64,000 nt of DNA, from NCBI RefSeq assembly GCF_000425705.1, contig NZ_AUDY01000012.1, positions 62,001-126,000 on the forward strand. Reading direction: 5' to 3'. The DNA comes from Halobacillus kuroshimensis DSM 18393 (GTDB taxonomy: Bacteria > Bacillota > Bacilli > Bacillales > Halobacillaceae). Of this stretch, positions 4,856-54,922 are shown in pieces. The notes under the pieces are model-generated. The model ran no database searches. It saw only the letters and a program-made list of their open reading frames with translations, and was not told the origin of the DNA. A program made the translations under genes and the position numbers. Within the stretch, counting starts at the first letter, position 1; each line of letters opens with the position of its first letter.

Positions 4856-4890
4856 GGGAGAGGGTGTAAGGTGTAAATAAAAGTAAAAAA

Positions 4891-4911
4891 GCAGGAGCTT
4901 ATGGCTCCTGC
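4891..4911 (-). terminator. Hairpin terminator, near-duplicate of the oppA terminator
   Basis: GCAGGAGC / GCTCCTGC with a 5-nt loop. On the minus strand it runs into TTTTTTAC, so it would stop leftward transcription. It shares the stem and A-tract of the terminator at 5284-5307 on the other side of repeat copy A. Confidence 0.7.
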
Positions 4912-4959
4912 CTTTCAAGCTGGTGAGTGAGGAACCTTGACCACCATTTGGGTAGAACG

Positions 4960-5093
4960 GTCACGTTCCGCTTATCGGTGGATGCCTGCCGCGGGTACGG
5001 CCTCAGCTAACTTGGGCAGAAAGAACACCTGCCCAAGTGGATCTTCGACCTGTGCTGTTCCCGCAGGCGTCACCACCGAACGCTCCTCGTGAC
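4960..5093 (+). repeat. 134-bp hairpin repeat, copy A
   Basis: One of four full-length members of a family that recurs at 12264, 33113 and 54720, plus a shortened copy at 10283. It starts GTCACGTTCCGCTTATCGG and ends CGCTCCTCGTGAC. The ends are imperfect inverted repeats (GTCACG/CGTGAC, TCGGTGG/CCACCGA). Inside, GCGGGTACGGC faces GCTGTTCCCGC and ACTTGGGCAG faces CTGCCCAAGT, so the whole unit folds into one long hairpin. It has no coding capacity. The 4797-5323 gap also holds the YczE promoter and two terminators. Confidence 0.9.
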
Positions 5094-5277
5094 TTCACCA
5101 AATGATGAAGGCTCTAAACGATCCTTGTTTCACAAAAACATGCCGTACGGGTCATGACAGGAACCCTGAATGATGTGTCGTATACGTGCAGGGAGACGTC
5201 CACTTACCGTAATCGAAAGCATTTTACTTGAATAAGGAAGACTGGAGGCGTTGGGGTAAATGGGAGTTATCTACATA
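5094..5277. other. Intergenic stretch between repeat copy A and the oppA terminator
   Basis: Non-coding by inspection: short frames without ribosome-binding sites. No RNA gene or promoter that I can support. Confidence 0.5.
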
Positions 5278-5283
5278 TAAAAA

Positions 5284-5307
5284 AGCAGGAGCTAAAAAGC
5301 TCCTGCT
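5284..5307 (-). terminator. Terminator of the OppA-like gene
   Basis: AGCAGGAGCT / AGCTCCTGCT with a 4-nt loop, flanked by A6 and T6, so it can work in both directions. It lies 17 nt after the oppA-like stop. Confidence 0.9.
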
Positions 5308-5323
5308 TTTTTATAGGATAGAA

Positions 5324-10026: not shown

Positions 10027-10032
10027 ACAAAA

Positions 10033-10054
10033 GACCGGCCTGAGCAGGCCGGTC
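10033..10054 (+). other. GC-rich hairpin just after serA
   Basis: GACCGGCCTG / CAGGCCGGTC, a near-perfect palindrome without a T-run. It precedes the real terminator by 2 bp and probably stabilises the 3' end. Confidence 0.65.
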
Positions 10055-10056
10055 TC

Positions 10057-10096
10057 AGCTTGTAAAGAAACCTATGTTTCTTTACAAGCTTTTTTT
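10057..10096 (+). terminator. Intrinsic terminator of the aminotransferase-serA operon
   Basis: A 15-bp perfect stem AGCTTGTAAAGAAAC / GTTTCTTTACAAGCT with a CTAT loop, followed by T6. Confidence 0.93.
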
Positions 10097-10282
10097 CTGT
10101 CTTACCGCCAGGAGCGTAAGCCCTTCCCTTTCCGCGCCCGATCTTCCTCCCCGGCCCACTCGTTCTTCCGGAACGGTCTGTGCCCCATACGTAATTGAAA
10201 AAAGTTCATTTTCGATTATATTCAGTCTAATAATAAGAGGCGATCTTCTGTTTAACGGAAAATCGTTCTCTTTTTGGGTGAG

Positions 10283-10344
10283 GTTACGAGGAGCGTTCGG
10301 TGGTGACGCCCGCGGCAAGCATCCACCGATAAGCGGAACGTGGC
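10283..10344 (-). repeat. Internally deleted copy (62 bp) of the 134-bp repeat, copy E
   Basis: In minus orientation both ends of the repeat are intact (CGGAACG side and GAGGAGCGTTCGG side), but the central 72 bp are missing. The junction falls at the short direct repeat GCGGGC/GCAGGC that occurs on both sides of the lost segment in full copies. The end bases also drift (GTTACG, CGTGGC). The rest of the 10097-10532 gap holds only the AbgT promoter. Confidence 0.85.
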
Positions 10345-10452
10345 CGCTCTGTATAGGGGGAACTTTATAATGAGGAACGTTCGATCTTGCCGTCTAATGA
10401 TCTGCCTGTGGGTTGATTTGTATGTGGTTTTTGTAAAAGTGAAACATAAACT

Positions 10453-12263: not shown

Positions 12264-12397
12264 GTCACGAGAAGCGTTCGGTGGTGACGCCTGCGGGAAC
12301 AGCGCGAGTCGAAGATCCACTCGGGCAGGTGGTTTTCCTGTCCGAGTTAGCTGAGGCCGTGCCCGCGGCAAGCATCCACCGATAAGCGGAACGTGAC
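12264..12397 (-). repeat. 134-bp hairpin repeat, copy B
   Basis: Full-length member in minus orientation, between two converging genes. Its inner stem reads ACTCGG / CCGAGT where copy A has ACTTGG / CCAAGT: a compensatory T-A to C-G exchange that supports selection for pairing. Between the AbgT terminator and this copy (12107-12263) I see nothing. No terminator separates it from the 3' end of the histidinol phosphatase gene. Confidence 0.9.
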
Positions 12398-33033: not shown

Positions 33034-33068
33034 GAAAAAAACGGCTGTCCTTGTAAGGACAGCCGTTT
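33034..33068 (-). terminator. Terminator serving the AGCS gene
   Basis: AAACGGCTGTCC / GGACAGCCGTTT with a 6-nt loop; the T-run lies on the minus strand. It is separated from the agcS stop by repeat copy C. Apart from these two elements the 32937-33276 gap is empty. Confidence 0.85.
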
Positions 33069-33112
33069 CATATTGTAGAAAAAAGTATTTCTCTTCTTGT
33101 GGAGCTGTGATT

Positions 33113-33246
33113 GTCACGTTCCGCTTATCGGTGGATGCTTGCCGCGGGCATGGCCTCAGCTAACTTGAGCAGGGAAACCACCTGCCCAAGTGAATCTTCG
33201 ACTCGTTCTTTTCCCGCAGCCGTCACCAGCGAACACTCCACGTGAC
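33113..33246 (+). repeat. 134-bp hairpin repeat, copy C
   Basis: Full-length member, lying between the agcS stop (33277) and its terminator (33034-33068), so it is transcribed into the agcS 3' untranslated region, in antisense orientation to the family consensus. Some paired positions are degraded (CTTGAGCAG / CTGCCCAAG; CCAGCGAAC). Confidence 0.9.
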
Positions 33247-54719: not shown

Positions 54720-54853
54720 GTGACGTTCCGCTTATCGATGGCTGCTTGCCGCGGGCACGGCCTCAGCTAACTTAGGCAGAAAGATCTCCTGCCCAAGTGG
54801 ATTTTCAGCTCGAGCTTTTCCTGCAGGCGTCACCACCGATCGCTGCTCGTGAC
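54720..54853 (+). repeat. 134-bp hairpin repeat, copy D
   Basis: Full-length member in plus orientation, 25 bp after the gntP stop and upstream of that operon's terminator, so it lies in the 3' untranslated region. First base pair altered (GTGACG) and paired positions slightly eroded (CTTAGGCAG / CTGCCCAAG). Confidence 0.9.
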
Positions 54854-54894
54854 CTTAACTTAAAAGGGAGTAAACACTCTCGAAAGCTTGCATG

Positions 54895-54922
54895 AACACC
54901 ACAGGATACCTGTGGTGTTTTT
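54895..54922 (+). terminator. Terminator of the scoAB-gntP operon
   Basis: AACACCACAGG / CCTGTGGTGTT with a 3-nt loop, then T. Confidence 0.85.

Follow-up and report, generated by a model that had tools for sequence, protein, structure and literature searches.

A 134-bp hairpin repeat of Halobacillus kuroshimensis as a probable module of IS1182-family mobile elements

The 134-bp hairpin that recurs between the genes of Halobacillus kuroshimensis DSM 18393 is probably a structured module sitting just inside the left end of an IS1182-family lineage of halophilic Bacillaceae, with the copies in the window (the whole analysed stretch of 64,000 nt) as non-autonomous derivatives. Most likely these derivatives entered terminators. 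The link provides a likely mobiliser for a repeat that is abundant in many genomes of the order. An earlier note on this DNA had described four copies of an intergenic hairpin of fixed length, and proposed selection on structure or a MITE- or REP-like element mobilised by a transposase elsewhere, with no family named. Its interpretation is partly supported: a MITE-like element moved by a transposase encoded elsewhere agrees with the data, and the family can now be named as IS1182. Our literature searches, which had little subscription coverage, returned no description of the repeat, nor of IS1182 elements carrying such a hairpin.

Repeat comparison and a covariance model place copy A at 4960..5093 on the plus strand; copies B (12264..12397, minus strand), C (33113..33246, plus strand) and D (54720..54853, plus strand, decayed) complete the set. 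All four are 134 bp long, lie in two orientations at the positions first reported, and are intergenic in agreement with the open reading frame listing and family matches. They are flanked by ordinary genes, with products that are YczE-like, OppA-like, of the AbgT family, histidinol-phosphatase-like, AgcS, RlmH and, as a weak match, GntP-like. In the pairs reported, copies A to D are 84-91% alike. The replacement of T-A by C-G in the inner stem of copy B, with pairing kept, is real and falls in columns 54 and 76. Folding z-scores on the strand in the orientation of the earlier note are -5.55 for A, -3.59 for B, -2.21 for C and -0.76 for D, and on the opposite strand -5.10, -4.99, -2.93 and -2.52. 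Copy D has the weakest scores and is therefore considered decayed, its fold not being significant on one strand.

A fifth copy at 10283..10344 on the minus strand, within 10267-10350, is an internally deleted 62-nt form that has lost the inner part of the hairpin. The palindromic, right-end-like AGCTTGTAAAGAAAC... at 10056..10091 (minus strand), beside a terminator at 10031-10056, is, we infer, probably the other end of the unit holding this copy. Copy C has a left-end-like ATTGTAGAAAAAAG at 33072..33085 (plus strand), preceded by a terminator hairpin at 33039..33068, and another terminator hairpin lies downstream of copy D at 54894..54922 (plus strand); no clear pair of ends is found at A, B or D. 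The terminators at 10239-10270 of the window and in the right flanks of loci L003, L004, L008, L012, L013 and L015 have a common TTCTGTTNAACAGAA-like inner core and differing outer stems.

The genome-wide covariance-model search that the earlier note had suggested, for which 43 copies were used to build the model, locates the hairpin at 90 or more places in the source genome (92 matches, with two same-place matches on opposite strands merged; 65 at 100 bits or more), a lower bound, since 150 of 1331 first-look candidates were scored. Of the 249 genomes and 105 genera of the order, 98 genomes and 57 genera have matches with E up to 1e-5; in the genus and family of the source genome presence is patchy (27 of 61 genomes positive). 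Among the plasmid and phage records searched, the hairpin is found in one plasmid, from Radiobacillus kanasensis, and in no phage. The claim of a length of exactly 134 bp stands as a strong tendency and not as a rule: 112 of 134 non-identical near-full copies have 134 nt, 12 have 133, four have 135 and six have other lengths, and a second class of 62 nt exists. Short matches in the source genome number seven of exactly 62 nt (G000:C6:16592-16653, C2:91831-91892, C12:518-579, C6:185239-185300, C6:173278-173339, C1:397048-397109 and window 10283-10344) and three of 63-67 nt. What the 62-nt form has lost is a 72-nt stretch bordered at the stem base by two 8-base words that are almost identical, CCGCGGGC and CCGCAGGC; these near-repeats suggest that the short form arose by slippage. 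Forms of this length occur in more than one kind of flank. Other arrangements are also observed: G030 has two same-orientation hairpins about 300 bp apart (L075, L076), the hairpin of L143 (H. litoralis) is partly duplicated, and several copies from H. andaensis and Halobacillus sp. Marseille-P3879 (L078, L085, L098, L123, L146) match the model only to position 105 and continue with a common sequence (GACGCACCGGACGTG...), a piece of about 60 nt inserted in the stem, ahead of the normal 3' arm.

The hairpin of 134 bp is only part of a larger unit. When nine copies are aligned with long flanks, a unit emerges that follows a terminator, has its start near GGCTGTAGAAAAAG and measures up to about 600 bp; six of the nine units end near TACAAGCTGA, followed by a second copy of the same terminator. 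The left and right flanks have a common segment scoring at least 18 in 12 of 35 copies, compared with 3 of 197 mismatched pairs. With one flank pair left out as not being a terminator (L047:16997, score 24), a terminator hairpin is duplicated around 11 of 35 copies, and the terminator-to-terminator distances give units of about 211-618 bp. Copy A is the only window copy among them. Its terminator hairpin at 4884..4915 recurs at 5278..5310 (flank comparison score 22), enclosing an inserted unit of about 362 bp at 4916..5277 (plus strand, ends approximate). Flank comparison finds no duplicated terminator at the remaining 24 of 35 copies, window copies B, C and D included.

Empty sites in relatives, which the earlier note had proposed to look for, support the right-hand terminator of copy A as a duplicate. 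Nine of the 21 other genomes of the genus were read at this site, with synteny judged by eye: seven (G002, G005, G007, G008, G011, G013 and G016) have one terminator and no element, G014 shares the element, and G012 has a different neighbour. None of nine other genomes, each read over 330 bp at the gene end next to copy C, has the hairpin. The left-end motif, with up to two changes allowed, has 21 matches in the sampled part of the source genome, eight of which were judged by eye to be true ends; the hairpin follows each of these, internally deleted in one case and degenerate in another. The repeat thus has the hallmarks of a MITE, being non-autonomous, present in many copies and accompanied by target duplication for 11 of 35 copies.

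Transposase genes or remnants linked to the hairpin, which the earlier note had suggested looking for, are found in the source genome, in the Thalassobacillus genome G027 and in G103, from another family of the order. The source genome has nine matches to the transposase profile NF033551 (E 2e-13 to 1.9e-4) that cover its C-terminal part; none exceeds the cut-off of 270 bits, and all are remnants. At all nine the hairpin lies directly upstream on the same strand, 0-110 nt away, with two overlapping by a few bases; eight of these hairpins are full and one is the 62-nt form. G027 contains two intact IS copies of about 1.87 kb, 93.8% identical over 1868 bp, with the ends GAGGCCACTG...CAGTGGCCTC; in both, the hairpin lies upstream of the transposase, 58 bp in from the left end. 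Their transposase frames extend over 484-486 aa from the first Met and score 364-367 bits against NF033551. Both copies are located in terminator loops with an apparent 8-bp loop duplication, the ends and duplications having been read by eye. Insertion into hairpins is thereby indicated by the duplicated terminators, the terminator loops of G027 and the empty site of copy A. In G103, a transposase over the cut-off has an upstream hairpin scoring 82.8 bits, and two remnants are similarly arranged (63.4 and 52.6 bits). By its transposase the element belongs to the IS1182 family, as shown by the loci in G027 and G103 where the hairpin lies upstream of a gene over the cut-off. The same left end, again with the hairpin, is found in loci from Virgibacillus senegalensis, Sediminibacillus and Thalassobacillus, some of which also contain fragments of the transposase gene. 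The association is not universal: among 17 transposase loci over the cut-off, the model finds an upstream hairpin in three (L202, L203, L307), a second hairpin subtype is upstream in another three (L175, L179, L181; the subtype pattern search covered 13 of the 17), and 11 have neither.

The covariation noticed among the window copies is real across copies and genera. Over 43 distinct copies, 92.1% of cells keep the pairing of the 42-pair hairpin, and two-sided changes that keep pairing are found at 18 of 42 pairs (64 cells). Shuffled controls average 7.9 pairs and 23.7 cells, with 0 of 500 as high, and slid controls reach at most 9 pairs and 24 cells; the supplied structure is favoured over the slid controls because it was derived from single folds of members of the set, the RNAalifold consensus having missed the inner stem. 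The six terminal pairs are the weakest, formed in 74.4% of cells. Covariation of this kind is what a host RNA element, either a 3' UTR structure or a small RNA under selection for RNA folding, would produce, and such an element would also agree with the location of copies at gene ends and with two pairs fixed as G.T on the plus strand. These two pairs leave room for an RNA role in the mobile lineage. However, usually Watson-Crick pairs in the 112 copies of 134 nt have turned into G.T in 60 cells and into A.C in 76, counted as sequences and not as events; the two are about equal and give no sign of one RNA strand being kept. Selection on structure finds support for the lineages that spread, but the copies show no visible preservation of RNA folding on one strand. 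The equal decay and the patchy presence in genus and family weaken the case for a host RNA gene, deleted 62-nt copies persist, and Rfam gives no match at gathering score in the window and nine further loci. We consider a host RNA element improbable; strong covariation in a repeat does not have to signal a host RNA gene.

The slow change of the hairpin speaks against the preferred reading of the window copies as non-autonomous IS1182 derivatives, and for a host RNA. Comparison of seven orthologous copies between the source genome and G014 gives 48 differences over 938 hairpin positions with zero gap columns, and 207 over 1052 with 136 gap columns for the adjacent 80-bp flanks. Three of the fourteen flank alignments look non-homologous (43/69, 30/63 and 38/80 different), and leaving them out lowers the flank count to 96 of 840. 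Copy D is an exception, differing from its G014 ortholog at 17 of 134 positions. A dead insertion would not need to change more slowly than its flanks between two species. Gene conversion may contribute to the slow change but is not its dominant cause: in four of seven cases no copy is closer than the ortholog, ties included, and in the other three the ortholog stands 2nd, 3rd and 18th. The pattern agrees with old insertions that are under some constraint or undergo conversion now and then. The REP-like half of the earlier proposal, a palindrome moved by a RAYT (Y1) transposase, would suit a palindromic, intergenic, high-copy repeat, but it is very unlikely because no Y1 transposase was found: the search for Y1_Tnp (PF01797), the RAYT gene that the earlier note had asked about, has no match in the source genome and is positive in 5 of 14 control genomes. 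Several units, moreover, are flanked by duplicated terminators.

The leading rival makes the hairpin module itself primary: it would be a family found throughout the order, with a core that is conserved and outer stems that vary yet remain self-complementary, and IS1182 and other small elements would have picked it up. Its main support is that the module occurs in elements with other ends and is therefore not tied to one element. In G115 it lies inside a small element with AGCTCTGTTAA...TTTAACAGAGC ends, read by eye; IS1595 was considered as parent of that element and had no match in four genomes. The module is absent from most of the over-cut-off transposase loci, and its distribution over genomes and genera of the order is wide, as given above. 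The core pattern fits 154 copies among the loci collected, with 26 distinct outer stems. For 19 of these 26 the own partner is the best pairing; outer-arm duplex energy has a median of -18.0 kcal/mol with the own partner versus -8.2 kcal/mol in mismatched combinations, and 13 of 26 fall below the mismatched 5th percentile. The second, related subtype, CTTTCCGCGGG...CCTCCTCG...GGGGTCTC...CCCGCAGGAGTC, has 14 pattern matches in the loci scanned for it (among its places are L043:15617, L053:455, L062:637, L073:467, L175:1261, L179:1243 and L181:1301), and has different outer stems that are still self-complementary. IS1182 copies in G002, G031 and G045 (L206-L208) are inserted after half-hairpins of this subtype, as judged by eye. 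Against a primary role of the module stands its constant place relative to the transposase in the nine remnants, G027 and G103; nor was a bare hairpin with its own target duplication met among the loci, which were examined non-systematically. A primary module is a possibility that we regard as rather doubtful, and as regards the window copies it overlaps with the IS1182 explanation.

Under the IS1182 explanation, the autonomous element would carry terminal repeats; 58 bp in from its left end would come the hairpin, followed by a terminator-like hairpin and then by a DDE transposase gene. The window copies would be MITE-like forms that arose by internal deletion and were moved in trans. The transposase may read extruded hairpins as targets, as published for IS1272, and joining at the 5' feet of a stem-loop would let repair duplicate the target hairpin. 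Entry into a terminator that leaves one terminator on each side should do the host little harm, and this may account for the number of copies. The least certain step is the role of the carried hairpin itself. It is plausibly, if not quite probably, a cis-acting DNA structure for the transposase; alternatively, it could serve as a leader that insulates the transposase gene. More speculatively, transposition in the order might be guided by structure in general: IS1182-type transposases would target extruded hairpins, both terminators and each other's modules, and may duplicate them whole, and the conserved core with drifting self-complementary outer stems would be a cis signal common to several small mobile elements. 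The copies are natural substrates for asking whether a DDE transposase recognises DNA shape over sequence.

Small, intergenic, non-coding and hairpin-forming repeats in tens to hundreds of copies are familiar from ERIC, BOX and other bacterial MITEs, as far as these are covered in the part of the account consulted (PMC10969869); those have other hosts and sequences, whereas here remnants of a transposase from a named family lie inside or beside the units. The Bacillus stem-loop repeats Bcr1, Bant-1 and Bhal-1 are likewise intergenic, folding and from Bacillaceae, and have listed sizes of 167, 72 and 74 bp (PMC2267715, sections consulted); a kinship with one of them, such as Bhal-1, is conceivable. 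A close likeness exists to IS1272 and TnSha1 of staphylococci, IS1182-family elements that, according to the available portions of their descriptions, insert into hairpins with little sequence preference, including terminators, several of them confirmed as such by RNA-seq (PMC4923244, PMC5678879). An IS1182-family transposase and insertion into hairpins are common to both systems; a carried 134-bp hairpin is not described in these portions. The two staphylococcal elements are reported there to remove part or all of the target hairpin with no duplication, whereas here the target is duplicated, as a whole terminator hairpin in the source genome or as an 8-bp loop in G027. The same work (PMC5678879, in the portion available) proposes that joining at the 5' feet duplicates the whole hairpin and joining at the loop duplicates the loop. 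The source genome shows the 5'-foot pattern and G027 the loop pattern, and whole-hairpin target duplication, only proposed in the IS1272 work, thereby gains sequence evidence.
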